From the NCBI GenBank assembly GCA_028752905.1, contig JAQNBH010000011.1:22786341-22850340 (forward strand): DNA of 64,000 nt, written 5' to 3'. The stretch is from Cladorhizidae sp. MBARI D1340-BT2 (Eukaryota; Porifera; Demospongiae; Poecilosclerida; Cladorhizidae). Shown here one piece after another: positions 22,091 through 63,827 of the stretch. The notes beneath the pieces are model-generated. The model searched no databases and was not told where the DNA came from. It saw nothing but the letters and a program-made list of their open reading frames with translations. Every line of letters begins with the position of its first letter. Positions within the stretch are counted from its first letter, which is position 1. Both the position numbers and the translations under genes were made by a program.

Positions 22091-22311
22091 ATCAAGCTAT
22101 GAACACTGGCATGCAGCAAGCTATGAACTCTGATATGTATGAACTATGATGTGTAGCAAGACATGAACTCTGGTGTATATCAGTCATTAACTCTGTATCA
22201 AGCCATGAACACTGGTGTCTTAAGCCATGAACTCTGGAGTGTGTCAAGCCATGAACTCTGGTGTGCATCAAGCCATGAACTCTGGTGTGCATCAAGCCAT
22301 GAACTCTGGTC

Positions 22312-24391: not shown

Positions 24392-27300
24392 TGTGCATCA
24401 AGCCTTGAACTGTGGTGTGTAGCAAGCCATGAACACTGGCGTGCATCAAGACATGTACTTTAGTTTGCATTGAGCAATGAACTCTGGTGTGCATCAAGCC
24501 ATGAACTCTGGTTTGCATCAAGCCATAAACTCTTGTGTGTATCAAGCCATGAACTCTGGTGTGCATCAAGCCATGAACCCTGGCTTGCATCAATCCATGA
24601 ACTATGGTATGCATAAAGCCATGAACTGTGATGGGTATCAAGCTATGAACTCTGGTATGTAGCAAGCCATGAACATTGGTGTGTGTCAAGCCATGAACTC
24701 TGGTTTGCATCAAGTCTCATGAACTCTTATATTAAGCAAGCCATGAACTATGGTGTGTATCAAGCTATATGAACTCTGGTGTGTAGCAAAACATGAATTC
24801 TGCTGTGTATCAATCAAGCTATGAACTGCAGTCTATATCTAGCTGTATAAATTCTGTTGTGTAGCAAAACATGAACTCTTATGTGCATCAAGCCAAGAAC
24901 TCTGGTGGGTATGAAGATATTCTAGTCTGTATCAAGCTATGAACTCGTGTGTGTATCAAGTTATGAGGTCTGGTGTGTAACAAGCTATGAACTCTGGGGT
25001 GTAGAAAGTCATGAACTCTGGCGCACAGCAAGCCATGAACTCCGGGGTGCATCAAGCCATGAAATCTGGTGTGTATTACGCTATGAACTCTGATGTGCAG
25101 CAAGACATGAACTCCGGTAAGCATCAAGCCATGAAGTTTGGTGTGCATCAAGCCATGAACACTGATGGGTAGCAAACTATGAACTCTGGTGTGTAGCAAG
25201 CCTTGAACTCTGTAACTAGCCATGAACTATAGGTGTCTCAAGCTATCAACTCTGTCTGGTGTACATCAAGCCATGAACTCTGCATGAAGCCATGAACTTT
25301 GATGTGCATAGAGCCATGAACTATGGTGTGCATGAAGCTATGAACTCTGGTGTACATCAAGCCATGAACTCTGGTGTGCATCAAGCCATGAACTCTGGTG
25401 TGCATCAAGCCATGAACTCTGGTGTGCATCAAGCCATGAACTTTGGTGTGCATCAAGCCATGAACACTGATGGTGTGTCAAGCCATGAACTCTGGTGTGC
25501 ATCAAGCCATGAACTATGGTGTGCATCAACCCATGAACTCTGGTGTGCATCACCAATGAACTCTGGTTTGCATCAAGCCGTGAACTTTGGTGTGCATCAA
25601 GCCATGAACTCTGGTGGGTATCAAGCCAAGAACTCTGGTGTGTAGCAAGCCATGAACACTGAAGTGCAGCAAGCCATGAACTCTGGCATGAATCAAGCCA
25701 TAACCTCTGGTGTGTATCAAGCTATCAACTCTGGTGGTTAGAAGACATGAACTCTGGTGTGTAGCAGTCATGAACTCTGTATCAAGCCATGAACTCTGGT
25801 GTATCAAGCCATGAACTCTGGAGTGTGTCAAGCCAAGAACTCTGGTGTGCATCAAGCCATGAACTCTGGTGTGCATCACCAATGAACTCTGGTTTGCATC
25901 AAGCCGTGAACTTTGGTGTACATCAAGTCATGAACTCTGGTGGGTATCAAGCCAAGAACTCTGGTGTGTAGCAAGCCATGAACTCTCATGTGCATAATGC
26001 CATGACCTCTGGTGTGTAGGAAGCCATAAACTGCGTGCATCAAGCCATTAACTCTGGTGTGCATCAAGCCATGAACTCTGGTTTGCATCAAGCCATGAAC
26101 TCTTGTGTGTATCAAGCCATGAACTCTGGTGTGGATCAAGCCATGAACTCTGGTTTGCATCAATCCATGAACTTTGGTATGCATCAAGCCATGAACTGTG
26201 ATGGGTATCAAGCTATGAACTCTGGTGTGTAGCAAGCCATGAACATTGGTGTGTGTCAAGCCATGAACTCTGGTTTGCATCAAGTCATGAACTCTGGTAT
26301 GCATCAAGCCATGAACTATGGTGTGCATCAACCCATGAACTCTGGTGTGTATCACCAATGAACTCTGGTTTGCATCAAGCCGTGAACTTTGGTGTGCATA
26401 AAGCCATGAACTCTGGTGGGTATCAAGCCAAGAACTCTGATGTGTAGCAAGCCATGAACACTGAAGTGCAGCAAGCCATGAACTCTGGCATGAATCAAGC
26501 CATAAACTCTGGTGTGTATCAAGCTATGAACTCTGGTGGTTAGAAGACATGAACTCTGGTGTGTAGCAGTCATGAACTCTGTAACAAGCCATGAACTCTG
26601 GTGTATCAAGCCATGAACTCTGGAGTGTTACAAGTCATGAACTCTGGTGTGCATCAAGCCATGAACTCTGGTGTGCATCAAATCATGAACTCTGGTGGGT
26701 ATCAAGCCAAGAACTCTGTTGTGTAGCAAGCCATGAACTCTGGTGTGCATAATGCCATGACCTCTGGTGTGTAGCAAGGCATAAACTGCGTGCATCAAGC
26801 CATTAACTCTGGTGTGTATCAAGCTATGAATTCTGGTGTGTAGCAAGACATGAACTCTGGTGTGTAGCAGTCATGAACTCTGTATGAAGCCATGAACTCT
26901 GGTGTGCAGCAAACCATGAATGCTGGTGTGTTAAGCCATGTACTCTGGTATGTACCAAGCCATGAACTCTGGTATGCATCAAGCCATGAATTCTGGTGTG
27001 TATCAAGCGATGAATTCTGGTGTGTAGCAAGACATGAACTCTGGTGTGTAGCAGTCATGAACTCTGTATCAAGCCATGAACTCTGGTGTGCAGCAAACCA
27101 TGAAATTTAGTTTGCATCAAGCAATAAACTCTTGTGTGCATCAAGCCATGAACTCTGGTATGCATCAAGCCATGAAATTTAATTTGCATGAAGCAATGAA
27201 CTCTGGTGTGCATCAAGCCATGAACTCTGGTGTGCATCAAGCCATGAACTCTTGTGTGCATCAATCCATGAATTCTGGTGTGCATCAAGCCATTAACTCA

Positions 27301-28075
27301 GGTGTGCATCAAGCCATCAACTTTGATGTGCAACAAGCCAAGAACTCTGGTGTGTATCAGGCTATGAACTCTGGTGTCATGCACTCTGGTGTATATCAGT
27401 CATGAACTCTGTATCAAGCCATGAACTCTGATGTCTTAAGCCATGAACTCTGGAGTGTGTCAAGCCATAAACTCTTGTGTGCATCAAGCTAGGAACTCTG
27501 GTCTGTATCAAGCTATATGAACTCTGGTGTGTAGCAAAACATAAATTCTGGTATGAATCAAGCAAGCTATAAACTCCATTGCTATATGAATTCTGGTGTG
27601 TAGCAAGCCATGAACTCTGGCGGGAATCAAGCTATGAATTCTGGTCTGTATCAAGCTATGGACTCTGGTGTGTAGCAAGTTATGAGGTCTGGTGTGTAGC
27701 AGTCATGAACTCTGTATTAAGCCATGAACTCTGGTGTCTCAAGCCATGAACTCCGGTTTGCAGCAAGCCATACACTCTGGTGTGCATCAAGCCATGAACT
27801 TCGGTGTGCATCAAGCCATGATCTCTGGTGGGTATGAAGCTATGAACTCTGTTGTGTAGCAAACCATGCACACAGGCATGCAGCAAGCCATGAACTCTGG
27901 CATGCAGAGGCCATGAACTCTGGTGTGTATCAAGCTATTAACTCTGGGGTGTAGCAAGACATGAAATTTGGCGTACAGCAAGCCATGAACTCCGGGGTGC
28001 ATCAAGCTATGAAATCTGGTGTGTATCAAGCTATGAACTCTGGTGTGCAGCAAGAGATGAATTCTGGTGTGTTGC

Positions 28076-29903
28076 CAGAGTACATGGCTTAACACACCAG
28101 CATTCAAGGTTTGCTGCACACCAGAGTTCATGGCTTGATACAGAGTTCATGACCGCTACACACCATAGTTCATGTCTTGCTACACAGACCAGAATTCTTA
28201 GCTAGATACACACAAGAGTTACTGGCTTGATGCACGCCAGAGTTCATGCCTTACTACATAGCAGAGTTCATGGCTTGATGCACACCAGAGTTCATGGCTT
28301 GTTGCACACCAGAGTTCATGACTTGATGCTCACCAGAGTTAATAGCTTGATACACACCAGTGTTCATGGCTTGAAGCACACCAGAGTTCATGGCTTGAAA
28401 TACACCATAGTTCATGGCTTTAGACGCCTGACTTCATGGCTTGATAGAGAGTTCATGACTGCTACACACCACAGTTCATGTCCTGCTACACAACAGTGTT
28501 CATAGCTTGATGCACACCAAAATTTATGGCTTGATGCACACCAGAGTTCATGGCTTGATGCAAACCAGAGTTCATGGCTTGATGCACACCAGAGTTCATG
28601 GCTTGAACTACACCAGAGTTCATGGCTTCATGCACATCATCGTTCATAGCTCGATGCACACCAAAGTTCATGGCTTGATGCACACCAGAGTTCATGGCTT
28701 GATGTACACCAGAGTTCATGGCTTGAGACATTTATAGTTCATGGCTAGTTATAGACTTCATGAAGGCAACACACCAGAATTCATCTCTTGATGCACACCA
28801 GAGTTCATGGCTTGATGCACACCAGAGTTCATGGCTTGATGCAAACCAGAGTTCATGGCTTGCCGTACGCCAGAGTTCATGTCTTTCTACACCCCAGAGT
28901 TCATAGCTTGATACACACCAGACCTCATAACTTGATACATACACGAGTTCATAGCTTGATACAGACTAGAATATCTTCATACCCACCAGAATTCTTGGCT
29001 TGATGCACATAAGAGTTCATGTTTTGCTACACAACAGAATTTATACAGCTTGATATAGACTGGAGTTCATAGCTTGATTGATACACAGCAGAATTCATGT
29101 TTTGCTACACACCAGAGTTCATATAGCTTGATACACACCATAGTTCATGGCTTGCTGCATACCAGAGTTCATGACTTGATGCAAACCAGAGCTCATGGCT
29201 TGACACACACCAATTTTCATGGCTTGCTACACATCAGAGTTCATAGCTTGATACCCATCACAGTTCATGGCTTGATGCATACCAAAGTTCATGGATTGAT
29301 GCAAGCCAGAGTTCATGGCTCGATGCACACCAGAGTTCACGGCTTGATACACACAAGAGTTCATGGCTTGATGCAAACCAGAGTTCATGGCTTGATGGAC
29401 ACCAGAGTTCATTGCTCAATGCAAACTAAAATACATGTCTTGATGCACACCAGTGTTCATGGCTTACTACATACCACAGTTCAAGGCTTGATGCACACTA
29501 GAGTTCATGGCTTGATGCACACCAGAGTTAATGGGTTGATGCTCACCAGAGTTCATGGCTTGATGCACACTAGAGTTCATGGCTTGATGCATACCAGAGT
29601 TCATGGCTTGATGCACACCAGAGTTCATGGCTTGATGCACACCAGTGTTCATGGCTTGATGCACACCAGAGTTCATGGCTCGATGCAAACCAAAGTTCAT
29701 GGTTTGATGCACACCAGAGTTCATGGCTTGACACATACCAGATACAGAATTCATGACTCGTACACACCAGAGTTCATGCCTTGCTACACAGAGTTAATAG
29801 CTTGATACACACCAGTGTTCATGGCTTGATGCAAATCAGAGTTCATACATAGCTTGATAGACACCAGAGTTTATAGCTTGCTGCATTCCATTGTTCATAG
29901 CTT
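28076..29903 (-). repeat. 24-bp minisatellite array, inverted block
   Basis: The same 24-bp unit runs in the opposite orientation, starting abruptly after GTGTGTTGCC at 28075. It includes an inverted copy of the higher-order marker (near 28732-28775). The longest open stretch (243 codons, 29074-29805) is only the repeat read on the plus strand. The block ends at about 29903, where the 180-bp satellite begins directly. Confidence 0.95.
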
Positions 29904-32114
29904 CTTACGGGTTAAAAAAGGAAGATTTCTCACCAAAAGACCTTTCATGTCATTTAAAGAGTAGAAACAGTTCTATATTGTTGAACAGGAAGCTGAAGTG
30001 CCAATTTTGACTCAAAACCCTTAAATGGAGGTTAAAAAGATAATATTTCTCAACAAAAGACGTTTTCTCTCATTTAAAGAGTAGAAACAGTTCCATAATG
30101 TTGAAGAGGAAGCTAAAGTGCTATTTTGACAAGATTTGCGATTTCAGATAATTTTTCTTCAAAGACGTACCAATTGGAGCAAAATAGAGCTTCTTTCGGT
30201 TTAAAACGGAAGATTTCTCACCAAAAGACATTTACTATCGTTTAAAGAGGTAGAAACAGTTCCATAATGTTGAAAAATAAGCTGATTTCAGACTTTTTTC
30301 CCTCAAAATGCTCAAAAACGACCTTATTGGATCTTATTTCGTTATAAAGGGAAGATTTCTCAGAAACCTAAAGATGTTTTTGTCATTAAGAGACAAAGAG
30401 TTCATAAATGTTTAAAAGGAAGCCATTTTGAAAAGTTTTAGCGACGTAAGAGAGTTTTTACTCAAAATCCTCCTATTGGAGATCTTTTTTTGGTTAAAAA
30501 TCGGAAATTTAACTTTTTCGATCGTTTAAAGAGTAGAAACTGCTCCAAAATATTGAAAAGGAAGCTAATTCTGTAATTTTGAAAAGATTGAGCGACTTAA
30601 GACAGTTTTCACTCAAAATGCTCAATAATGTTCTAGGACGGATAAAAATGGAAGATTTCACACCAAAAGACATTATCTGATGTTTAAAGAGTAGGAACAG
30701 TTCCATATTGTTGACAATAACATATATGCATATATGCATATTTTAGCATTTAAGACAGTTTTTCTTTGCTTAAAATGTATTAAAATAAACCAATCGCTTA
30801 AAAAGGGGAGATTTCTCACCAAAAGACATTTTCTGACATAAGAGTAGAAGTAGTTCCATAATGTTAAAAAGGAGCCATTTTGGGCGATTTCAGACAGTTT
30901 TTCCTCAAAACGCTCAAAAAGGACCCAATTAGGAGCTTAAATAGGAAGATTTCTCACGAAAAGACGTTTCTGTCGTTTAAAGAGTAGAAACAGTTTTATA
31001 ATGTTGAAAAGGAAGCTAATGTGCCCATTTGGACAAGAATGAGCGATTACACAGTTTTTTCCTCCAAAAGCTCAAAAAGATCCCATATTGAGTAAAATAG
31101 AGCTTCTTTGGGTTTAAAAGACGTTTTCTATCATTTAAAGACTAGAAACAGTTCCATAATGTGAAAAGGAAGCTTATTTGCCATTTTAACAAGATTGAGC
31201 GATTTCAGACCTTTTTCCTCAAAACGCACTAAAAGATCCTGTGAGCTGTTAAAAACAGATTTCTCACAGTGTAAGACAGTTTTTCGAGTACAAACAGTTC
31301 TATAATGTTCAAATGGAAGCTAATTGCAAGAATGAGCGGTCAGACTGTTTTTCTTTAAAACGCTTACAAACGTCCAAAATGCATTAAAATAGCAAAAAAA
31401 AATTCTGACATTTTAAGAGTACAGTTCCATAATGTTGGCTAATTTGCAATTTTGATAAAATTGAGCGATTGCAGACAGTTTTTCCTGAAAACGCTCATAA
31501 ACGTCCCAATTGGAGCAAACGAGTTTCTTTCGGGTTAAAAACGAAATATTTCTAAGATTTAAACAGTTTTTCTTCAAAACGCTCTAAAACGTTCCAATTG
31601 GGAGCTTCTTTCTTTTTAAAACGGAAACTCTTGTTTAAGGAGGTAGAAACAGTTCAATAATGTTGAATGAAATGTAAGCTAAAGTGCCCATTTTGACAAG
31701 AATGTGCGATTTCAGACAGTTTTTCCTCAAAACACTCAAAAAGTCCCAATTGGATCAAAGTAGTTACTTTCGGTTAAAAACGGAAGATTTCTCACCAAAA
31801 GACGTTTCCTGTCGTTTGTAGAGTAGAAACAGTTCTATAATGTTGAAAATGAAGCCATTTTGAACAGAATGACAGGTTATTCCTCAAAACGCTCAAAATA
31901 GAGCTGCTTTCAGTTAAAATGGATATTTCTATAAAAAAAGACGTTTTCAGTCATTTAAAGAGTAGAAACATTTCCATAATGTTGAAGAGGAAGCTAATGT
32001 GCCATTTTGACAAGATTTAGACCGTTTTTCTTCAAACCGCTCAAAAACGTACCAATTGGGAGCTTCTTTCCGTTTAAAACGGAAGATTTCTCACCAAAAG
32101 ACATTTAACCTTGT
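29904..32114 (+). repeat. 180-bp satellite, block 1a
   Basis: Tandem, degenerate monomers carry conserved words in a fixed order: GATTTCTCACCAAAAGACG, TTTAAAGAGTAGAAACAGTT, CCATAATGTTGAAAAGGAAG, GAGCGATTTCAGACAGTTTT, CCTCAAAACGCTCAAAAACG, CCCAATTGGAGCAAAATAGA. A full monomer adds to about 180 bp; many are shortened to 120-170 bp by internal deletions. There is no coding potential. The same family returns at 58836. Confidence 0.85.
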
Positions 32115-33059
32115 TTAACCGTTTCACCGCCGTATCCGCCATATGGCGGAGTTGTAAATGACCGCGACAAAAACAAATATATAAAATCGTTAGTTTTAGC
32201 TACGCATGTGCTAAATATACCTGGGGGTGTCCCTTGCTTTCCTAGAGCTGGAATTAAAATAGCTGACGTATGGTGCCTAGGTAACCAAGGTATTCGTGAC
32301 GTCAAATTCAGCTGATCGATTAAAAAATGGCTTCTAGACTAAATTGGACGATGTTTTGGCAATGCTGGATGACGACGAATTCGGTCTATCTGAGGTTGAA
32401 AGCAGTGATGAGGAAGGAGAAGGGCCTACCACGGAGAACAGACTAGAGATCCTGAAGAGCTAGCAACTCTGAATGACATCGTAGATTCAGAACCTTTTTT
32501 TGCCAGTCCAGAGATAGTAGCGCTGATTTGCGTAGGGATCCAGGTCTTGAGACTGACGATGGTGAAGAACAGGAACAAGATGTCCCAGGAAAATAAATAG
32601 CCATACACATGAAAGATCCTTTAGGCATTACTGCTTTTTTTCTGACTTGTATAAAAAATAGCATTTACCTGGGTACTTCGCGGGTACTAGCTATCCATCT
32701 ATATAGCTATAATAATATAAAGCTAGTAGGTAGTTTGTTAGCTATGGTTTCTAATTATCTGCCCTAGTAAAATATGACACTGTCATTTTATTATATTTAC
32801 ATCATGATGTAATCTCTGTCCATATTCTGCCTAAAAATACAATCAAAACAAACAATCAAATGGTATAATGATATTCATCGTATGTGGTCAGTTGCTAGGC
32901 AACCTACAGTTGACCACAATGTTTGTCAACACCAATGCTATAACATCAACCATGGTTGCTAGGGACATTTGTGCACTCCTGGTTGAATATAAAATATTAT
33001 GTAAAATAACGTCACTATTTAAATAAAGTGCTGTGTAAATCCAGCGGTGGAAGGGTTAA
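32115..33059 (+). mobile_element. piggyBac-derived non-autonomous element, 945 bp
   Basis: Flanking TTAA copies are at 32115-32118 and 33056-33059. The terminal inverted repeats match imperfectly (left TTAACCGTTTCACCGCC, right complement TTAACCCTTCCACCGCT). The satellite monomer is interrupted exactly at its TTTAAAGAG word and resumes after the right TTAA, so a target-site duplication is supported. Inside, from 32327, lies a plus-strand start (MASR) and, after a frameshift, an acidic stretch (LDDVLAMLDDDEFGLSEVE) typical of piggyBac N-termini. The catalytic domain is absent. Confidence 0.75.
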
Positions 33060-34290
33060 AGAGTTAGAAACAGTTCAATAATGTTGAAAAGTAAGCTAAA
33101 GTGCCCATTTTGAAAAGAATGAGCGATATCTGACAATTTTTTCTAAAAATGCTCAAAAACTTCCCTATTGGAGCAAGGTAGAGCTTCTTTCAGATAAAAA
33201 TGTGAGATTTCTCACCAAAATACCTTTTCTGTCGTGAAATGCTGAAAAGTAACGTGCACATTTTGAATTGAATTAGCGATTTCTTAAAACGATTTAAAAT
33301 AATCATAAAAGGGAGAGATTTCTCACCAAAAGACGTTTTCTGACATTATAAGAGTAGAAACAGTTCCATAATGGCTAATTTGCGATTTCAGACATTTTTC
33401 CCTCAAAACACTCAAAAACGTCACAATTGGGAGGTTAAAAACGGAAGATTTCTCACCAAAAGACGTTTTCAGACGTTTAAAGAGTAGAAACAGTTCTATA
33501 ATGTTGAAAAGGAAGCTAATGTGCCCATTTTACATAAATGAGCGAAATACGTCCCAATTGGAGCAAAATAGAGCTGCTTTCGGTTAAAAAGGTGATATTT
33601 CTCACCAAAATGTTCTGTCATTTAAAGAGTAGAAACAGTTCACTGTTGAATAGTTCCATAGAAGCTAAATAGCGATTTTGAGATACTTCAGCCTTTTTTC
33701 CCTCAAAAACTACCAATTGGAGCAAAATAGAGCATCTTACGGATAAAAAGTTGATTTCTCACCAAAAGAAGTTTTCTGTAGTTTAAAGAGTAGAAACAGT
33801 TCCATAATGTTGAAAATGAAGCTAGTTTGCACCTTTGGAAAAGATTGAGCGATTTAAGACAGTTTTTTCTCAAAATGCTCTAAAACATCCCAATAGGAGG
33901 GACATTTATCACTTTAAGAGTAGGAACAGTCCTATAATTTTGAAATGGAAGCTAATTGCCCATTATGATGAGTGATTCGAGACAGTTTTTCCTCAAAATG
34001 TTGAAAAAGTCCCAATTGGAGCAAAGTAGAGGTTTTTTCAGTTAAAACGGCAGATTTCTCATAAAAAGACATTTACTCTCATTTAAAGAGTACAAGTTTG
34101 AGCGATTTCAGACTTGTTTTTTTAAATTGCACTAAAATATCCCAATTGTCGCAAAATATAGCTTAAAAATGGAATATTTCTCACAAAAGTCGTTTAAAAG
34201 AGTAGAAACAGTTTTATAATAACAAGAATGAGCGATTTCAGAGATTTTTTTCTCAAAACACTCAAAAACGTCCCTATTGGCTCAATTTTA
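33060..34290 (+). repeat. 180-bp satellite, block 1b
   Basis: The satellite continues after the TTAA element in the same orientation and with the same word order. It decays towards about 34290. Confidence 0.85.
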
Positions 34291-42130: not shown

Positions 42131-42515
42131 GTGTTAACGATTTCAAATAAGTACCTGAGGCTAGAGAAAGCTATACTCTACGCAATGAGTGTTTTCATTA
42201 GGCACAAAAATGTAGGTACGTGGTCAAGCATGCAAAAGGAAAAAATTATCGATCACTACGGTGCATATGATGCAGAGCTGCCTGCGGAGACTGTGCAGAG
42301 TGATGAATATATACCAAGGAAGCTCTGATATCCACTGAACTCAGAACAGAGTGGAAAACATTTCGTAGCTACCTATCCAAGCAGCCGAAAGGAACTTTGT
42401 ACTCAGAGCAAACCAAACTCAGTAGTGAGGAAATGCTGAGAACAATCTTCCCCAACATCAGCACTCTGGCAAACATCTGTCTCACTATTCCTGTTAGCAC
42501 TGCCACTAGTGTCTT
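42131..42515 (+). pseudogene. hAT transposase C-terminal fragment
   Basis: The frame starting at 42131 includes KIIDHYGAYDAELPAETVQS and ends at a stop near 42328. After a shift the next frame reads ELRTEWKTFRSYLSKQPKGT, then LANICLTIPVSTATSVFSH. The last piece matches the hAT dimerisation domain near the C-terminus (LA.iclsiPvStA..ERsFS), with the ERSF part replaced. The catalytic part is missing upstream. The last codons merge into the first unit of the satellite that follows. Confidence 0.65.
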
Positions 42516-44006
42516 CTCTCATTTATATATATATTGAGCAAGTTATGATGGCGTGCCACTAGTGTCCTCTCTCATTATATATATAGAGCAAGTTATGATG
42601 GCGTGCCACTAGTGTCTTCTCTCATTATATATATATATAGAGCAAGTTATGATGGCGTGCCACTAGTGTCCTCTCTCATTATATATATATAGAGCAAGTT
42701 ATGATGGCGTGCCACTAGTATCCTCTCTCATTATATATATAGAGAGCAAGTTATGATGGCGTGCCACTAGTGTCCTCTCTCATTATATATATATATATTG
42801 AGCAAGTTAGTTATGATGGCGTGCCACTAGTGTCCTCTCTCATTATATATATATATAGAGCAAGTTATGATGGTGTGCCACTAGTGTCCTCTCTCATTAT
42901 ATATATATATAGAGCAAGTTATGATGGCGTGCCACTAGTGTCCGCTCTCATTATATATATATATAGAGCAAGTTATGATGGCGTGCCACTAGTGTCCTCT
43001 CTCATTATATATATATATATAGAGCAAGTTATGATGGCATGCCACTAGTGTCCTCTCTCGTTATATATATAGAGAGAGCAAGTTATGATGGCGTGCCACT
43101 AGTGTCCTCTCTCATTATATATAGAGAGAAAGTTATGATGGTGTGCCACTAGTGTCCTCTCTCATTGTATATATAGAGAGAGCAAGTTATGATGGCGTGC
43201 CACTAGTGTCCTCTCTCATTATATATATATATATATATTGAGTCAGTTATGATGGCGTGCCACTAGTGTCTTCTCTCATTATATATATGTATAGAGCAAG
43301 TTATGATGGCGTGCCACAAGTGTCCTCTCTCATTATATATATATATATTGAGCAAGTTATGATGGCATGCCACTAGTGTCCTCTCTCATTATATATATAT
43401 ATAGAGCAAGTTATGACGGCGTGCCACTAGTGTCCTCTCTCATTATATATATATATATATATAGAGCAAGTTATGATGGCGTGCCACTAGTGTCCTCTCT
43501 CATTATATATATATATATTGAGCAAGTTATGATGGCATGCCACTAGTGTCCTCTCTCATTATATATATATATAGAGCAAGTTATGACGGCGTGCCACTAG
43601 TGTCCTCTCTCATTATATATATATATATATATAGAGCAAGTTATGATGGCATGCCACTAGTGTCCTCTCTCATTATATATATAGAGAGAGCAAGTTATGA
43701 TGGTGTGCCACTAGTGTCTTCTCTCATTATATATATATAGAGAGCAAGTTATGATGGCGTGCCACTAGTGTCCACTCTCATTATATATATATATAGAGCA
43801 AGTTATGATGGCATGCCACTAGTGTCCTCTCTCATTATATAGAGAGCAAGTTATGATGGCGTGCCACTAGTGTCTTCTCTCATTATATATATATATATAG
43901 AGAGAGCAAGTTATGATGGCGTGCCACTAGTGTCCTCTCTCATTATATATATATAGAGAGCAAGTTATTATGGCGTGCCATTAGTGTCTTCTCTCATTAT
44001 ATATAT
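42508..44006 (+). repeat. 54-bp (TA)n satellite, left block
   Basis: About 27 tandem units share GCAAGTTATGATGGCG, TGCCACTAGTGTCCTCTCTC, then ATTATA..TATA of variable length ending in GAG. Unit length varies between about 45 and 65 bp because the (TA)n tract varies. The array was later split by the 44007-50038 transposon. Confidence 0.9.
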
Positions 44007-44041
44007 GTGACAGGATTTGGGAAAAGGGACCTTATCGCGCA
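44007..44041 (+). repeat. Left terminal inverted repeat of the 6-kb element
   Basis: 35 bases identical to the reverse complement of 50004-50038. It begins GTGACAGGATTT and ends in a GCGCA word. Confidence 0.9.
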
Positions 44042-44609
44042 AAAATAAATATATGAGTTAGCTATACCATGTTGAAGCCCGATTTATAAGGTTCAAAATA
44101 AGCCTTGTATCAAGTCTAGAGCTGCTCTGACACCGAAGATATGAGCGAGAGCTTCAGGTTTAAGTATTGGCTAAAACCGTGACTATTTCAATAACTGGGC
44201 GTTGTAGTGGACGACGAAAGCTAAAATGTTTACTCCGTAAATTACCGTGTTACGAACGGGTGGGGCTACTTTTGCTGGGAAAGAAACGATGTAAATAGCT
44301 ATAGCTGTTGTCTGACAAAGTGAAACTATGGAACGCTGGCTATCTAAAACTATAGAACGCTGGCTAACTAACTAAGACTGTGGACTTCGAAGCAGACGCT
44401 GTCGAAAGTGGGGCGGTACTTTCGGGAAAGAAGTGATCGAAGACTGTGAATTTCTAGTCATTCGCTTAAAGATTCATCCAAAACAGTCTGGATTTGTACT
44501 GGGAGTAAGCGCTAGCCAGGTCTAGCACTAGGCATAAATAAGTAGAGTATGTACAGGCTAGCATTAATAATTATTAGCATACATTAAAAAAGGACAAATT
44601 TGCAATGTA

Positions 44610-46987
44610 CAGTAGCGGCCAAAAAAAACTTTACATACCGTTGCGTTGGGTAAACGTTCAACGCAGAAACGTTTCTTAAGAAACGCTCAAGCAACGCTCA
44701 AGGAACGCACAGATAACGCTCAAGCAACGTATTGCGAACGCAACGCACGATCCGTTATTTAATTACCCGAAACGCGCAATCAACATTCGGTATCCTACAC
44801 CAAGTGTTCGATAGAGCGCGTAAAGTCAAGTCAGTCGGCCTACTGTTGATTACTGTTCTGTTTTGTTGCAGCTTCTACTTTTGATTTGTCCTGGGAATGG
44901 CTCACAGAAGAACTCTCGCTGCCACCTTCCTCTGAGCAGTAAGTATAACACTAGGTAGAACTCCAATGGCTAGCGCCTATCTGTGGTAGTTACCCAGCCT
45001 TTACTTCAGTCTAGTTGTTAGTGTTACATACAGTATTTAAAACGAAACCCCCCAAAATAAAAGCTAGAACAGTGGATCCAGTAATGATAATTATACTGAC
45101 TATCGTTTGGTCTTCTGGCAGAATGAAAGTTCTGGGTGGCTGTACCAAGCAGCAATGTTTTAGGGTGCTCCTCAATGGGAGTGGGAGGCCAAGGCAGTGA
45201 GGGTGATATATAATGGCAAGATTTCAGCTATTGTTAAGTTTTAAATCAAATTCTTTATATCAAGTTCAGGTGTGATTTAATATTTTGAAATGCAGTTACC
45301 AGGCAGCCATGGAGGAAGAATTCAAGCCTGTCATGGAAGACGAGGATTACAGTTCTTCACTCTACATCTGTGGTGGCGGGGTCAGGACTGGACTTGTTCA
45401 ATAACTATATAGTTGTTTTTGAAATTATCATTATTTTATATCTTCTTATTGATAATTTAATAAGAAAATTTAACATCTCTAACTACCCAAACACACGAAA
45501 GTTTTGCCAACTTGATATCACAAGTGATTTCCAAATAAACCTCCCCATGGCAGGTGTCTGTTCTACTTCTGACATCTACAGTTAATCAAAATTGTGTTAT
45601 GCTGTCCACCAATTCAGCTTTGGACTTGGGCTTCACCTCTCCTGATGTACTCTTTCAAACTCGTGTCACAGGTCTTCAATGGGGTTGGCATCTTGAAACT
45701 CAGGAGGCATCCTCCATCAATTTATATCGAACTCTTTAGCCAGCCTGGATGTACGTTTGGGGTCAGTGTCCTGCATGAAGCGGTGATGGGAGCAAACATC
45801 CTTTACAAAGGGTAACAAGGGTCTAGTGAAGAATTTGAACAAAAAGTGGGGCTCTCATAATACTGGCCCACACATTTACCTTCACCAAATGTTTCACGCT
45901 ATAATAAAATAAACAGGTTTAAAACAAGAGTATAAATCTACACCTTATTACACACACAACCATAATACAACATGAATCATATCTTAGCTTGTTCTTTCGT
46001 GTCTGCCTTATACAACAAAAAAAAGCCTATATATGTGTTTCCAATTGAACTGTGCACTCGTCTGTCCTCTTCAAGGTTCTGTATCTCGCTCAAATCTCTT
46101 GACCTAGGACAGGGATAAATGATACTGCTATTGATCATGTTATTACATTAGTCACTATACCAATTCACCAGTGTTCTATATCAATATCTTGCCCTAGACT
46201 TATGCCATAACATCTACAAAGTCCCTAAACTATATATATATATATATTTTTTTAAATCCAATGGCTTATCCCCATCAGCACATTGGCTCTAACCAAAATA
46301 CCATCAAGACCCAGGCCTAGATTATCATTAGCCACTAACAACCAACATAGCTTCAGTGTGACACAGAAAGCTTCTACACTAGATATTAACTTTCACATAG
46401 TTCCATCCCAAAACTAGTTCAACACAAGCGTCTCTTATCAGTTGGCATTACCTCTGCCTCAAAATATCAACATAAGCAATGTCCTGCAAAGCAAGACTGG
46501 GTTCCCTTCGCTGTGAAGGAGAACTGCAGTTGGTATGCTGTCTTCTCATCATCTTCCAGCATCTTTTCCACCACCGCTCCACGGCTGTAAGGCGATACCT
46601 GTCTCGCAGTGCTTGACAAAACTGGATGCATTGCCTTGTTGCTGTCAGGCTCTCCTTCAAAATACAGACGATAGCTGCAGCCTTGAATCCTCTAGATCCT
46701 AAAGAATACAATTCTGTTTCTTCTAATAGAATAAGGCATCTTGATTCTGAAAAAGAATAAACGCTAGAGCAATGACAGTTAGCCTTCGTCGATCTGGTAT
46801 GCGCTAGAGAAATTCAATTTTACAACGCTCAATTAACGATCCCTGCCTAACGTTTTTGGCCAACGTTTAGCGAACGTATGGCGAACGTTCGGCGAACGTT
46901 TGTCTAACGGTACAGCAACGCTGCGACTCAAACGTACCACAAACGTCCAACGCAAACGGTACGTAAAGTTTTCTTTTACCTCTACTG
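44610..46987 (-). mobile_element. Nested Tc1/mariner element, 2.4 kb
   Basis: Flanked by TA (44608-44609 and 46988-46989). The inverted repeats begin CAGTAGCGGCCAAAAAAAAC on the left and CAGTAGAGGTAAAAGAAAAC on the right complement, then share CTTTAC.TACCGTT.GCGTTGG. Subterminal regions (to about 44760 and from about 46820) are rich in AACGTT/CGAACG and CAACGCTCA-type words. A decayed Tc1-like transposase lies on the minus strand. It inserted about 17 bp beyond the stop codon of the host element's gene, so that gene was not cut. Confidence 0.8.
45620..46711 (-). pseudogene. Tc1/mariner transposase remnant
   Basis: The N-terminal HTH region (46711-46480) reads GSRGFKAAAIVCILKESLTA and then a TRQCIQ..RYRLT segment, as in the paired-like domain of Tc1 transposases. 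The catalytic part (45810-45620) has HRFMQDTDPKRTSRLAKEFD and, beyond a stop, PPEFQDANPIEDL, matching the second Asp (QDNDPKHTS) and the final acidic block (SPDLNPIENLWHE). Between them (about 46450-45830) little can be aligned. Multiple stops mean it is dead. The enzyme family cuts and pastes at TA. Confidence 0.65.
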
Positions 46988-47004
46988 TAGCTTCCTACTG
47001 TTAG

Positions 47005-49696
47005 TTATGTGGTGTGTTTGAGATTGAGATGAGATTCCACTTCATTGTTCAGAAGTTGGGGGGTACTGCTCCTGCTTGTTGGTTTTGGATTTGGGGGTAA
47101 TGGACAGGTAGTGTCTTTGTCAGAGTCAGGACAAAATTGCCTGATATTCTCATACAGGTACCATTGCCGTTCAAGAGTAAGACCCTTGGAATGTATTACA
47201 AGTGGCAAACCATTCTGTTGCGGTTTCCAAGTATGTTTGAAGAGTTTGATCTCCTGTTCCACTGTGTCACATCGGTCCCTCACGAACACACTGTCAGGAA
47301 CACGGCTATCAAAGAAAAAGTGATGGAGTTTTTTAATGCCAATGATCTTCTTGAAGTGAGTTGCAAAAAGAGTACTCCAATCGAATGTTGGTACAATGAC
47401 TGCTTCATCTTCGGTTGCAACTAACTGAGCGAAGTTACAATCTGCAGATAAATTGACAACACTTGCTAGGCCACTCAATGTCCCTATCTTCGTCCTTCTG
47501 TATTTCCTCTTCAGAAGACCAAAGCACCAATCTGGTGAGAACTTTGTGTGCCCTACCACCAAAAATGACAACGTGATTTTGTTGTACCTTCCTGTTAGAG
47601 TCCTCCACAACAAGTACTGCATCATACAATTGTTCTTGTTCTGTCCTGTGCAATTATCAGCATGGAGGAACACTTCTGTCTCTCCAAGTCCATGAGTCTC
47701 AAGGAAGTGATGAAGCTGGCTCACCACAACATTGGCGCCTTTGCCACAATCGCTGACCTCATCAGTCAGGTAGTTCACCTGCCTCGGAATTCCTTCGCAG
47801 TGTACACCAAAGATACTGCACTTCCGAGGTACAAGAAAGTACATGGGACCTGGCTGGAGAGGATCTGAAGGATAGTGCACCTATCAAAGAAGGTAACAAT
47901 GTCATGTGAATAAATCTTTATTCCCCTACTATCCAAAATATATCCAAAGTAGTATGATTTATATTTTTTGTCTCATGCAGTTATCAGTAACACTTCGTCT
48001 CTTCTGGGTAATGCATATCCAAGAATTATGGCACATGATTAAAAGAAACCAAGGAGTGCAGGTAAACCAACATAAATATCCTATGACACTCCCACACTTT
48101 TGTCAATAACTGAATGTTAAGGTGCTATTCTAGTGTGATAATACTCTCAACACCCAAATAAATGACCCCTCTCTGACATTGTACACATTGTAGATACACA
48201 ACCATGGGATAAGCTACTTAACACCCTGTTGAACATAGCTAGTACCTATAGGATTTATAGTAATACACACCATTTGTGTAATACATACCATTTGTGCGTA
48301 ATCAAAGGAATAATGAGCTTTGATGTCTCTCGAATTTGCAGGTGTGAGTGCAGACAAAGGAGGTGGCTGGAATGAGACATTGGTTGGGAAGAGAGATCTG
48401 ATTGACCTCTTACATTCGTCAGATTTGGTCCTATAAAATGACCTTTCGGTTGTCACAATTCGGAGATGCTCCAGTGCACTGGCAAGTGCTTCTTTCTGTC
48501 TTCTCAGACTCTGAGGAATTTACAGCTCGCACAACAGTGGTACTATTACGCTGGCGTTGCCAACACAAATCCGACATTGGCCGCATGAGAATGATCGAGG
48601 GAAGAAGAGTTCGCCACAAGTTACAGAACGTCGAGTATGCAACAGCATGAAAAATGGTCATTTCCACTGCTGCCATGTATATATTCCATATGCCACGTTT
48701 GGAGGTGCTTGAGAGTAGAAGCTTGATGTCACTCTGTCGATAACCTGGGATGCGACCTGGAAGAAGCAAGCCATTCTCTTCTGTGTAATTGAGTAGGAAA
48801 TGTACCATGTTCTTAATCGACACTAGTGATAGAGTGTACTTTGGTAAACGCTTCGTATTTCCATGTACGCGAGGAAGAATACCGTTGTCAAGGAAGCTCT
48901 TGGTGATGTTTTTGAAACGCTTCAGACCAATGGTATGTAAAAAGAGGAATGTTTCTTGACAAATTTGTCGACTCTGGTGTTGGTACGATACGCGAATTCG
49001 AACTCTTTTAGCAGCAGTGTGCCTGGCTTCCGTGGAGGTTGACTCACTAGTGTTCGCCAAAGCCAGAAGTTGCCCCATGATCAACATGTCAAGTTTACAG
49101 TGTGAGAGCTCGAAGCATTTTGATCTGACTTCCTGTACATGACCCACAGAAAACTGTGCTGAACAGCTCCGTCCCCTCCACTTCAGGCAACCACAACCTG
49201 CAGACATGAACATTGTGATTGATTTTTCCTCGTCTAAGTCAGTCGGCCGATACTCTACTTCTGTATCACAAAGACTGGACAATCGTGCCAAGGCCAAATC
49301 GGTCTCTGATGGAGTTCCTGGTTCATCCAACTCGCCATGCAGATCATCAGTTTCACTATCATCCATTGCATCCATTACTCCCTGCACATCCATCTCATCA
49401 TTTCTGTCACCCTGCTCATCCATTGCATCCATCTCATCTTTTCTGTCACCATGTTCTTCAGATCCTTCCTTGTCAAGTTCTATATCAATTTATTTTATAA
49501 TAATTATCTAAATCTTAATGAGAAATGAGGTAGCTACCATTGTCTACTTACCTTCAAATGGAGGATCATTGTCCTCATCATCCTCATTGGTGAAATACTG
49601 CTCAATTACATCTAGCAGTGCCAGCTGGTCTCCTGAGGAATAGCTGCTAAAAGAATTAATAGCCTTAGCTGCCTCATTACTACTTATCCAAGCCAT
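47005..49696 (-). CDS. DUF7869-like protein, candidate transposase, three exons
   Basis: Exon 1 (49696-49552) starts MAWISSNEAAKAINSF and ends at a GTAAGT donor. Exon 2 (49479-48289) continues in the same frame (acidic, DE-rich, then CGCLKWRGRSC, CQETFLFLHTIGLKRFKNI, LPRVHGNTKRLPK) and ends at a GTATGT donor. Exon 3 (47880-47005) joins in phase: HYPSDPLQPGPMYFLVPRK, then HADNCTGQNKNN and VVGHTKFSPDWCFGLLKRKY. One frameshift lies at about 48485-48515. The predicted length is about 740 residues. The HADNCTGQNK motif and layout match uncharacterised DUF7869-type proteins of invertebrates. As the only gene between the TIRs it probably encodes the transposase; its Asp/Asn motif may belong to an RNase-H-like active site. 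That role is inferred. Confidence 0.7.
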
Positions 49697-50003
49697 TGCA
49701 GCTGGCAGTGTTTATGTGGTTCCATAACAACCGCAGTATGCCGGCCGTATGCTAATTGGAGAATGACGTAATGCTAATTGAACTTTTACTGCGAAGTCAC
49801 TCCGTATACGCGTTATTCTACGCAATGGAAAACTTGACGACAAGTTTTCGAACTGTTATTTTAACCTGTTCTGGACTCAACCTAGACACCAAACTTGGCA
49901 CAGAGGTAAAGGAAAGATTGTAGAGAGTGCTAAAGTTAAAAAAATATATATAAGAAAAAGTGACCCATGCATACTTTTTGTGCTATAACTCAAAATCATT
50001 TTC

Positions 50004-50038
50004 TGCGCGATAAGGTCCCTTTTCCCAAATCCTGTCAC
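50004..50038 (-). repeat. Right terminal inverted repeat of the 6-kb element
   Basis: Exact reverse complement of 44007-44041. It is followed at once by ATATATAGAGCAAG of the satellite. Confidence 0.9.
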
Positions 50039-50643
50039 ATATATAGAGCAAGTTATGATGGCGTGCCACTAGTGTCCTCTCTCATTATATATATATATAT
50101 ATATATATTGAGCAAGTTATGATGGCGTGCCACTAGTGTCCTCTCTCATTATATATATATATTGAGCAAGTTATGATGGTGTCCCACTAGTGTCTTCTCT
50201 CATTATATATATATATAGAGCAAGTTATGATGGCGTGCCACTAGTGTCTTCTCTCATTATATATATATAGAGCAAGTTATGATGGCGTGCCACTAGTGTC
50301 CGCTCTCATTATATATATAGAGAGCAGGTTATGATGGCGTGCCACTAGTGTCTTCTCTCATTATATATACATTGAGAAAGTTATGATGGCGTCCCACTAG
50401 TGTCCTCTCTCATTATATATATATTGAGCAAGTTATGATGGCGTGCCACTAGTGTCCTCTCTCATTATATATATATAGAGAGCAAGTTATGATGGCGTGC
50501 CACTAGTGTCCTCTCTCATTATATATATATTGAGCAAGTTATGATGAGTGTCCTCTCTCATTATATATATAGAGAGAGCAAGTTATGATGGCGTGCCACT
50601 AGTGTCTTCTCTCATTATATATATATATATATAGAGCAAGTTA
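50039..50643 (+). repeat. 54-bp (TA)n satellite, right block
   Basis: About eleven units of the same satellite as 42508-44006. The last unit breaks off after GAGCAAGTTAT at 50643. Confidence 0.9.
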
Positions 50644-58835: not shown

Positions 58836-61078
58836 CATGCTTCAGTATCGCAAACAGTTCCATAATATTGAAAGGGAAGCTTATTTGCCATTTTGACAAG
58901 ATTGAGCGATTTCAGACAGTTTTTAATGGAGAAAATTTCTCACCAAAAGACATTTACTGTCGTTTAAAGAGTAGAAACAGTTCCTGTTGAAAAGGAAGCC
59001 ATTTTGACAAGAATGAGACAGTTTTTCCTCAAAACGCTCAAAAGAATCCCAATTGGAGACAAATAGAGCTTTCGGTTATAAAGGGGAGATTTCTCACCAA
59101 AAGACATTTTATCATTTAATGTTCAAATGGAAGCTAATTGCCCATTTATACAAGAATGAGTGATTTCAGACACTTCCCAAATGGAGTAAAATAGAGCTTC
59201 TATTGATAGATTTGTCACAAAAATACGTTTTCTGACATTTTAAGAGTAAAAACAGTTCCATGATGTTGAAAAGGAAGCTAATTTGCCATTTTGAGCGATT
59301 TCAAACAGTTTTTCCTCAAACGCTCCCAATTGGAACAAAATGGAGCTTCTTTCTGGTTAAAATCGGAAGATTTCTCACCAAAAGACCTTTCCTGTCGTTT
59401 AAAGAGTAGAAACAGTTCTATAATGTTGAACAGGAAGCTAATGTGCCCATTTTGACATTAATGAAACAGTTATTCCTCAAAACCCTCCAAATAGAGCTGC
59501 TTTCAGTTAAAAAGATGATATTTCTCACCAAAAGTCGTTTTCTGTCATTTAAAGAGTAGAAACAGTTCCATAATGTTGAAAAGTAAGCTAAATTGAGTGA
59601 TTTCATAGTTTTTTCACAAAATTCATTAAAAAAGAGGCAAAATAGATCTTTCGGTTAAAAAGGGCAGAAACCAAAATATGTTTTTTGTCATTTAAGGCGT
59701 AGAAACAGTTCATAAATGTTGAAAAGGGAACTAATTTGTCCATTTTGAAAAGTTTGAGCAATTTAAGACAGTTTTTACTCAAAATCCTCCTATTGGAGAG
59801 CTTATTTCGGTTAAAAATCTGAAATTTGACTTTTTCTGTCGTTTAAAGTAGACTTGTTTCAGTTAAAAATGGAAGATTTCTTATCAAAAGACGTTTTCTG
59901 ACAAGATGAGTAGAAATAGTTCCATAATGTTGAAAATGAAACTAATTTCCCATTTTGAGCGATTTCAGACAGTTTTTCCTCAAAACGCTCCCAATTGGGT
60001 CAAAATAGAGTTAAAATCGGAAGATTTCTCACCAAAAGACGTTTACTGTCGTTTAAAGAGTAGAATCAGTTCTATAATGTTGAAATGGAAGATAATGTGT
60101 CCATTTGGACAAGAATGAGCGATTTCAGAGTTTTTTCCTCCAAAAGCTCAAAAACATCCCAAATTGAGTAAAATAGAGCTTCTTTGGGTTAAAAAGACAT
60201 TTTCTGTCATTTCAAGAGTAGAAACAGTTCCATAATGTTGAAAGGGAAGCTTATTTGCCATTTTGGCAAGATTGAGCGATTTCAGACCGTTTTTCCTCAA
60301 AACGCAATAAACATCCTAATTGTGAGCTTTTGGTGAGATTTCTCACCAAAACACATTTACTGTCGTTTAAAAAGTAGAAACAGTTCAATATTGCTGAAAA
60401 GAAAGCTGTGCCCATTTTGACAAGAATGAGAGTTTTTCCTCAAAACGCTCAAAAAAAGTCCCAATTGAGACAAATAGAGCTTCTTTCGATTAAAAAGGAG
60501 AGATTTCTTTCCAAAAGACATTTTCTTTCATTTAAAAAATAGAAACAGTTCCCTAATGTTCAAATGGAAGCTAATTGCAAAAATTAGTGATTTCAGACTG
60601 TTTTTCTTTAAAACGCTAAAAAAACGTCCCAAATGCAGTAAATAGAGGTACCAAAAATATGTTTTCTGACATTTTAAGAGTACAGTTCCATAATGTTGGC
60701 TAATTTGCCATTATTCAAAATACTATAAAAAACGTCACTATTGTAAGCTTCTTTCAATTAAAAAGTGTAGATTTGTCACCAAAAGACGTTTCCTGTCATT
60801 TAAATGGTACAAATAATTCAATAACGTTGAAAAGGAAGCTAAATAGCCATTTTGAGCGACTTCAGACAGTTTTTCCTCAAAATGCTCAAAAACGTACCAA
60901 TTGGAGCAAAATACGGTTAAAAAGGGGAGATTCACCAAAAGACGTTTTCTCTAGTTTAAAGTGTAGAAACAGTTCCATAATGTTGAAAAGGAAGCTAGTT
61001 TTCCCATTTTTGAAAAGATTGAGACAGTTTTTTCTCAAAATACTCAAAAACATCCCAAAATAGAGAACATTTATCATT
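58836..61078 (+). repeat. 180-bp satellite, block 2a
   Basis: The same monomer family and orientation as 29904-34290, with the same conserved words and similar internal deletions. The two blocks are 24 kb apart, with transposons and other repeats between them. Confidence 0.85.
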
Positions 61079-61160
61079 TTAACGCTTTAGGGCCGATAAT
61101 TGAAATAACGCCGCGCAAGCGTCTGCCGGAATTAATTGAGTAATTCGTTTTATTAGCCCG

Positions 61161-61805
61161 AGAGAAAAACACCTTGGGCTCTTGAAGTTCATGGGACAGC
61201 TTCTTCGCTTCAGGACTCAATCAGGTTAGCGTGTTGATAGCTTACATGGCCCTTGAAGTCATGGGACAGCTTCTTCGCTTCAGGGCTCAACTAGGTTAGC
61301 GTGTTGCTAGCTTACCTGGCTACTTCTAAACAAAGCACACTAAGTTTTTTTGCTTTTAGCGATCTCTGCGGTCTGTTGGCTTCGAAATCTTTTTACTATA
61401 GAGCTAGAGCTGCCATTATGCCATGGTAGTAGTTTCATCCACGTAAATAGTTTCAAAAAGGTAAGCTAGATAATTGATTGAGTATATAATTAGTAGTAAT
61501 TAGTTTTAGTCGCGCGAGAGAAAAACACCGTGGGCACTTGAAGTCATGGGACAGCTTCTTCGCTTCAGGACTCAACCAGGTTAGCGTGTTGATAGCTTAC
61601 ATGGCCCTTGAAGTCATGGAACAGCTTCTTCGCTTCTGGGCTCAACTAGGTTAGCGTGTAGCTAGTTTACCTGGCTAATTCTAAAGAAAGCATACTGTTT
61701 GTTTTGCTTTTAGCGATGTCTGTCGGCTTCGAGATCTTCTTACTATAGAGCTGCCATGATGCCATGCTACGTAGTTTCATGACGCAAATAGTTCCAAAAA
61801 AGTAA
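61161..61805 (+). repeat. Direct duplication inside the TTAA element
   Basis: Two copies (about 61161-61460 and 61518-61805) share GAGAAAAACACC, TTGAAGT(T)CATGGGACAGC and TTCTTCGCTTCAGG. Each copy itself contains a doubled GTCATGGGACAGCTTCTTCG segment. Confidence 0.8.
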
Positions 61806-62150
61806 GCGTGAAGCTTACCTCCGATCAGTATTTTTGTTGTCAGTACTCTGTTCACATTCAAAGGAAAGGACATGATGTTACCAATATTTTCAGGACAAGA
61901 CACATGGATATAAGACACATGGATATACTGATAAGTTGCTGAGATATTGAATGTCAATAATATATTGTTTTGCTAGGTAGAAGTAAGTTGAGCATGAAAC
62001 ATAATCATATATATAGCTAGCTATTATTATTGAATGTGAGAAATAGTGTGCCAGCTTGTAGCAGTCCTCTTTTAGGCATAGATGTGGCTTCCGAGGACAG
62101 GCATTGCATACCCATACGCTCTGTCGGGAGGGCACACATTTTTGGGGGCA

Positions 62151-62819
62151 CTAGATGCATCTCCTAGATATATTGCCTCTTGCAGGAAAGTGGTCTAGTC
62201 GAGGAAGTGTTGGTGGTAATAGTTCTGTGACAGAGCTACTTGGCCTCTGAGAAGAGAGCAGTGGCTGGTTGGTCGACTGAGAGAGTGGTTGTGGTGGATT
62301 TGGTGGCAAGGGTAGGGTTTGTTGAGATATGTGTTGTGGTTGAGGTGTGTTGGTTGACGACTGAGATGGTTGTATAGTTGGTGCTATAAGTACATGTATA
62401 GCACTGCTGAAGAACATCTATAGTGTATTGACATTGTTATGTATTGACATGGTTATGTTAAATGTTTGTTGTTGTTGTTTCACCCACCTGTAGAAAATGT
62501 AAATCCTGGACTGAGCTGTGTACCAGTATCATTCTGACCTATAGCTGGTGGAGGTGAAGCTCACTCCTCTGAAAATATTTATTTTTGTAAATATAATCAT
62601 TGAATCATAAAGAAACCATTGATGTTGGGGTGAAGTTCTGAATCACTTGATCACTTGCTGGAGGAGGTACAATATTTAAAAAAAACATTACCATTGTCTT
62701 CCATAACTTCAAGGTCATCATCACTTCCTTCTGCTATGTATTCAATGTTGCTGTTGTCATAACCAGAAAAAAAGTCTACAACACACTCTAGAGAAAATCT
62801 TTTTGCCATTATCACTTGT
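62151..62819 (-). pseudogene. piggyBac transposase exon 1 and Pro-rich segment
   Basis: Exon 1 (62819-62692) starts MAKRFSLECVVDFFSGYDNS, is acidic at its end (EGSDDDLEVMEDN), and ends at a GTAATG donor. A Pro/Ser/Thr/Gln-rich frame follows at 62417-62151 (STNTPQPQHISQQTLPLPPN). The same arrangement, starting MAKR with an acidic end and then a TTPQPQ-rich exon, is seen in the 36060-39722 element, so this is an internal-deletion derivative of a related piggyBac lineage. Nothing of the catalytic core is left. Confidence 0.6.
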
Positions 62820-62990
62820 GGGCAGAGCAGCTACAAGTAAACACAGCTGCAAAATATTAGATTACGCAATGGCCATGTAAATATAGCGGCGCTAAAGTGA
62901 TTAGTGTTTCTCCGTGACAAAAGTCGCTATCGTCGTTATGGACAATTAAAATGTGCGCGTGAAAAGTCGCTATCGGCCCTAAAGAGTTAA

Positions 62991-63827
62991 GAGTAGGAAC
63001 ATGTTGAAATGGAAGCTAATTGCTCATTTTTACAAGAATGAGCGATTCGAGACAATTTTCCCTCTAAATGCTCAAAAACGTCCAATTTTGGGAGCTTTTT
63101 TCGGTTAAAACGGCAGATTTCTCACCAAAAGACCTTTTCTGTCGTTTAAAGAGTAGAAACAGTTCCATAATGCTAAAAAGTTACATATGTGCACATTTTT
63201 AGACAGTTTTTCCTTAAAACGATTAAAATAGAGCGTCTATCAGTTGAAAGGGAGAGATTTCTTACCAAAAGACGTTTTCTGACACTATAAGAGTAGAAAC
63301 AGTTCCATAATGGCTAATTTGCGATTTCAGACATTTTCCCCTCAAAACACTCAAAAACATCCAATTGGGAGGTTAAAAACGGAAGATTTCTCACTAAAGA
63401 GTAGAATCAGTTCTATAATTTTGAAAAGGAAGCTAATGTGCCCATTTTGACAAGAATGAGCGAAATACATTCCTATTGGAGCAAAATAGAGCTGCTTTTC
63501 GTTATAAAGGTGATATTTCTCACCAAAATATGTTTTCTGTCATTTAAAGAGTAAAACAGTTCCATTTTGACGAGATTTAGGGATTTAGACGGTTTTTCTT
63601 CAAAACGCTCTAAAACGTTCCAATTGAGCAAAACAGTCTTACATTTATAACAAAACACATTTACTATCATTTAAATAGGTAGAAACAGTCCATAATTTTT
63701 AAAAGGAAGCTAGTGTCCATTTTGACGAGAATAAGTTTTTTTCTCAAAATTCTCACCTATTGTAGCAAAAAAGAGCTTCATTCGGTTAAAAAGTGGAGAT
63801 TTCTCACTAAAAGACGTTTCCTGTCAT
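62991..63827 (+). repeat. 180-bp satellite, block 2b
   Basis: Continuation of the satellite after the TTAA element, up to the next TTAA insertion. Confidence 0.85.

Follow-up and report, generated by a model that had tools for sequence, protein, structure and literature searches.

A multicopy transposon of a cladorhizid sponge with DUF7869 as its probable DDD transposase, most likely of the Sola2 group

The Sola superfamily of DNA transposons was reportedly described by Bao et al. in 2009. A passage of PMC10741241 presents Sola elements as coding for a DDD enzyme (with three catalytic aspartates), producing 4-bp target duplications and ranging from bacteria to metazoans. The part of PMC3627910 that deals with Sola2 gives 4-bp duplications of the form AWWT (written ATAT, AAAT and ATTT) and, for the dictyostelid elements, terminal inverted repeats (TIRs) of 12–21 bp. 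The present analysis concerns a window of 64,000 nucleotides (the whole stretch of DNA analysed) from contig JAQNBH010000011.1 of the sponge Cladorhizidae sp. MBARI D1340-BT2, in which an element at 44007–50038, bounded by 35-bp TIRs with zero mismatches, contains a single long gene coding for a protein of the Pfam family DUF7869. We read this element as a damaged copy of an autonomous DNA transposon of ~3.65 kb whose DUF7869 gene codes for a DDD transposase, most likely of the Sola2 group, and give this reading a probability of about 0.93. The transposon superfamily is probably already known; the link between such a transposon and the DUF7869 label was not found in the literature searched, since a search on DUF7869, covering few subscription journals and preprints, returned no paper and one on the motif GQNKN returned only unrelated matches.

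Copies, target sites and the satellite cluster

The initial annotation had described perfect TIRs with a satellite on both flanks, and the same borders were found here; a 54-bp satellite flanks the element at 42501–44006 on the left and 50096–50628 on the right (Tandem Repeats Finder), the first unit on the right starting at ~50043. Two features had escaped that annotation, the ATAT adjoining each end and a nested element of 2.38 kb (44610–46987), which is missing in 17 of the 20 copies fetched and, by alignment, shared by L026, L027 and L028, so that the DUF7869 element proper is ~3.65 kb long. The ends of the nested element resemble those of Tc1/mariner; it has 11-bp subterminal repeats, and two open reading frames (ORFs) tested against Pfam gave no domain above the cut-off.

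The genome searched comprises 857 Mb in 325 contigs. The first 100 bp of the element match at 100% at all of the best 40 of 108 candidate places, and the first 34 bases of the TIR occur exactly 47 times in forward and 48 times in reverse orientation, with none for the reversed control, which shows that the TIR is commoner than expected by chance. Exact TIRs form 37 pairs less than 8 kb apart, with lengths of 2,700–6,044 bp, and 35 of these pairs enclose a DUF7869 match (among the 150 matches listed), nine further matches having a lone exact TIR no more than 7 kb away; multiple copies with the gene between the repeats, proposed earlier as a check, are therefore present. Both ends were present in 18 of the 20 full stretches fetched (L023 and L027 have one end). 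The copies fall into a canonical form of ~3.6 kb, a form of ~2.95 kb that lacks the part corresponding to 48430–49119, other sizes, and the forms with the nested element on contig C2. An internal deletion matching 48430–49119 is common to L010, L012, L017, L024 and L025 (2.94–3.13 kb), which occupy distinct sites and presumably represent a derivative moved in trans. Main segments are ~96–99% identical to the window copy, which agrees only moderately with the description of the element as recent; the left end of L018/L019 is only 88% identical, and another DUF7869 family of the same genome, that of L064, reaches 99.8–99.9% between copies on three contigs.

The sequence ATAT is found on both sides in 17 of the 18 two-ended copies (L013 is one base off), and no ATAT adjoins the single end L057. 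These 18 copies occupy about 14 distinct sites, flanks being common to L014/L016, L018/L019, L021/L022 and L026/L028. Empty sites were sought because ATAT is palindromic. The copy L009 lies in a tandem repeat of which three neighbouring units contain one ATAT and the filled unit two, a fourth unit differing there, and the repeat that holds L014 has a paralogue beside L021/L022 with one ATAT. The 61-bp satellite around L010 is consistent with a 4-bp duplication, less clearly, since its TA number varies. The target duplication is 4 bp, and the empty sites and constant duplication anticipated in the initial annotation were thus recovered. Duplications of TA or of 6 bp, considered since a (TA)n run surrounds the window copy, are excluded by the empty sites.

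Not all copies need have arisen by jumping. The region 20.06–29.65 Mb of contig C2 contains 22 of the 37 TIR pairs in two size classes (six of 5.19 kb and 16 of 5.99–6.04 kb), and the flanks were viewed for seven of them (the window copy, L026, L028, L047/L048, L049/L050, L051/L052 and L053/L054). Six of these share both the 54-bp satellite and their flanks, suggesting that the cluster grew with its satellite, and we regard it as likely that the C2 copies derive from satellite-driven multiplication of one or a few insertions rather than from transposition; the nested element aligned in L026, L027 and L028 points the same way. On the other side, L047/L048 sits in a different, 24-bp satellite and copies on other contigs are flanked differently, and such amplification would concern the C2 cluster and not the nature of the element. 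The 24-bp satellite of L047/L048 resembles one in the window (12289–29903), and a copy on contig C17 (L041/L042) also lies within the 54-bp satellite.

The DUF7869 gene, its product and the gene-first test

The gene occupies the minus strand, in three exons with GT/AG borders, in agreement with the earlier description of a single three-exon gene with sound splice sites and one frameshift (Table 1). Exon 3 matches DUF7869 (PF25273) at E 1e-18. The frameshift is a 4-base insertion near 48495, absent in all 12 other copies inspected, and the frame of the window copy also ends unlike that in most other translated copies. Translation of 12 further copies gave frames open over ~720 aa in L013, L021 and L022 and frames with stops, shifts or deletions in the rest.

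Three aspartates (D366, D445 and D487 in the numbering of the bacterial relative L029) show no substitution in an alignment of 16 animal and bacterial proteins. AlphaFold models of one animal and one bacterial relative predict an RNase H-like layout with these residues at the DDE/D places, including the Asp of the HADN motif, where the initial annotation had expected it. Foldseek alone gave nothing at E 0.001 or better; the argument for the predicted fold rests on matches in VIA structural re-alignment, which covers only chains ranked by Foldseek. Pfam matches below the cut-off, such as DDE_Tnp_ISAZ013 (E 0.018 for L032 and 0.13 for one member of the A1 alignment), were not used.

The circularity of searching with TIRs was broken by starting from the gene. 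A DUF7869 profile search of the genome yielded 655 candidates, of which the best 150 were scored, with none in 14 control genomes, and 15 loci were picked, not at random, because their frames are open over a long stretch or because they occur in several copies. TIRs are present at both ends of 12 of them, in seven different TIR sequences, all starting with GTG (the 5' base of L072 is outside the sequence), so that other DUF7869 families of this genome repeat the arrangement. A 4-bp AWWT sequence stands on both sides of all 11 copies with testable flanks (the left end of L072 lies at the edge of the sequence), namely ATAT in eight, AATT in two and ATTT in one; ten of these are palindromes, and the exception, ATTT in L069, is a direct repeat that is not palindromic. 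Bases 16–19 read (A/G)AAA in five of the seven TIR sequences and AGAA in those of the L064 and L072 families. The proteins of these two families are 17–18% identical to that of the window family and keep the DN and HTKF[SA]PD motifs, their first Asp (ADYQ) being two columns off in the alignment. L078 has a stop within its frame.

Table 1. Features of the DUF7869 element in the window
Feature	Position	Strand	Basis or remark
Left target duplication copy, ATAT	44003..44006		Flank sequence; 4-bp length from empty sites of other copies
Left TIR, 35 bp	44007..44041	+	95 exact genomic matches to the first 34 bases
Nested element, 2.38 kb	44610..46987		Ends CAGTAG...CTACTG; TA on both sides; no part of the DUF7869 element
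Exon 3	47005..47880	-	DUF7869 (PF25273) domain; HADNCTGQNKN and HTKFSPD motifs
Third candidate catalytic Asp codon (HTKFSPD)	47530..47532	-	Alignment of relatives
Second candidate catalytic Asp codon (HADN)	47656..47658	-	Alignment of relatives
Exon 2	48289..49479	-	GT/AG borders; frameshift near 48495 in the window copy
First candidate catalytic Asp codon (SFDYAQ)	48301..48303	-	Alignment of relatives
Exon 1 with start codon	49552..49696	-	GT/AG border
Right TIR, 35 bp	50004..50038	-	Perfect inverted match to the left TIR
Right target duplication copy, ATAT	50039..50042		Flank sequence; length from empty sites elsewhere

The position of DUF7869 as sole gene, the predicted fold, the three aspartates and the linkage of gene and TIRs in many families together argue that it is very probably a DDD transposase, a DNA transposase having been proposed for this family from the window alone, and copies, empty sites and gene-first loci add to the case. 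As a qualification, three of the 15 gene-first loci are without a TIR pair (L067 lacks ends, and L073 and L076 have none in the stretch fetched). DUF7869 might instead be an accessory protein, the TIRs being moved by another transposase encoded elsewhere; the role is argued from sequence and models, and derivatives with deletions, found at several sites, point to mobilisation in trans within the family. We consider this very improbable in view of the gene-first test, since no second long gene was found in the element, since DUF7869 shows the layout and the residues of a DDD enzyme, and since it is carried by eight TIR-defined families of this genome (that of the window and seven gene-first) and by six bacterial elements.

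If DUF7869 is the transposase, the Pfam domain would cover most of its RNase H-like catalytic domain, and the N-terminal helical, Cys-rich part may bind the 35-bp TIRs. The aspartates of SFDYAQ, HADNC and HTKFSPD would, together with metal ions, cleave at the GTG ends, movement being probably of the cut-and-paste rather than the copy type. Insertion would take place into AWWT targets, here preferably ATAT, and host repair of the 4-bp stagger would yield the 4-bp duplication.

Elsewhere in the window, the 24-bp satellite at 12289–29903 (~17 kb) flips its orientation at 28071–28075, and dispersed repeats of ~160 bp, ~66–82% alike, occupy ~29910–34100 and 58900–63600; repeats of this kind also neighbour several copies of the transposon on other contigs.

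Bacterial relatives

A scan of a species-genome collection gave 12 bacterial loci, mostly on metagenome-assembled contigs and including Desulfocicer vacuolatum DSM 3385 and Thiomargarita. Long TIRs are present in six of the 11 loci examined (L039 was left out), around an intronless frame of 635–668 aa (stop to stop), and delimit elements of 2,056–2,715 bp. The three aspartates are kept between bacteria and the animal at ~27–36% protein identity, and in a tree of 52 rows eight bacterial proteins make up one side of a branch (100/99). An exact target duplication was found in two of the six elements (AATT and AAAT), the other four being equal at three of four bases (AAAT/ATTT in L029, ATAT/ATTT in L031 and L036, and ATAT/ATGT in L033); in L029 the inverted repeat continues through AAAT/ATTT.

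The bacterial ends, placed by eye at AWWT|G and fixed by exact duplication only in L030 and L032, match the window TIR at 14–20 of 34 bases (shuffle p 0.0001–0.040 for 12 ends, which are not all independent, since some are paired in one element or come from related elements). Ten of the 12 ends align best in register, the exceptions being both ends of L036, so that the TIRs of five of the six elements are in register with the animal TIR, and AAAA occupies bases 16–19 in 7 of 7 elements. In two loci outside the motif building, L034 and L038, the right ends score 41.4 and 31.7 respectively, where shuffled sequences reach at most 10.3 and 9.8, L034 being close kin of L032, itself used for the motif. 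The same scan gave nothing above shuffles in L035, L037 and L039 and a marginal score in L040 (10.8 against 10.2). With ends that are alike and in register between bacteria and an animal, the family lends itself to a study of how one end-recognition code may survive across domains, and the bacterial elements of ~2.1–2.7 kb are a candidate insertion-sequence family.

The end pair is in single copy in the Desulfocicer genome, and 198 genomes sampled from one bacterial phylum gave one match, Desulfocicer itself, indicating that the bacterial form is rare in that phylum. Searches of viral contigs, plasmids and phages (the latter two with the L029 protein) returned no relative. A homologue search from L035 gave 409 matches, and among the 120 listed most have longest contigs of 2–5 kb and the named ones are called 'hypothetical protein'; such short contigs may be collapsed insertion sequences. 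L037 and L039 are contigs of a metagenome-assembled genome named as a Cycloclasticus symbiont of a Poecilosclerida sponge, with animal-like DUF7869 genes; an end near the L037 gene agrees with that of L069 over 29 bases without a mismatch, no left end of L037 having been found, and both contigs are likely host DNA within a bacterial genome record.

Comparison with described transposons and integrases

The Tc1/mariner elements Mos1 and Sleeping Beauty differ in their TA duplication as against the 4-bp ATAT observed here, and membership was rejected since the empty site is 4 bp shorter, not 2. Retroviral integrases (HIV, SIV, PFV) have Asp-Asp-Glu in place of three Asp, and here a single gene lies between TIRs. 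Sequence searches of the PDB matched neither group: one returned nothing at E 10, another one unrelated row at E 0.24. The element is like piggyBac in its 4-bp AT-only target and its DDD enzyme, but the piggyBac target is TTAA, and piggyBac was rejected since the targets here are ATAT, AATT and ATTT; no piggyBac model appeared among the Pfam matches of 43 members of the A1 alignment.

The choice that matters for the name lies between Sola2 and a superfamily apart from Sola1, 2 and 3 that would share with them only the 4-bp AT-rich target and the DDD enzyme. Relatives in protein databases amount to 876 matches, most of them unnamed; among the 120 listed, those with a name belong to sponges, corals, a snail or bacterial records and bear the labels uncharacterized or hypothetical, and none of the matches listed (120 per homologue search) is named Sola or transposase. 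No NCBIfam model scored above the cut-off in five proteins tried. These names, and TIRs of 35 bp as against the dictyostelid 12–21 bp, would favour the separate superfamily, which we consider unlikely; the Pfam name may just be independent of Repbase nomenclature. Should it nevertheless hold, itself a doubtful prospect, DUF7869 would define a DDD superfamily of animals and bacteria, including a bacterial insertion-sequence family labelled hypothetical, with a TIR anatomy in register across domains (a terminal G, AAAA at bases 16–19 and a CCTT-like block at about 24–27, beside AWWT). Under the transposase reading itself, the 876 database proteins are best read as transposases and not as host genes, which would make gene counts cleaner.

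We consider it highly likely, from features and descriptions, that the element belongs to Sola2. Set against the Sola2 of these descriptions, its protein is shorter (720 against 888 aa); it agrees with them in the AWWT 4-bp duplication, the presence of TIRs, a DDD transposase as main gene, a range from bacteria to animals and a size within 2–9 kb.
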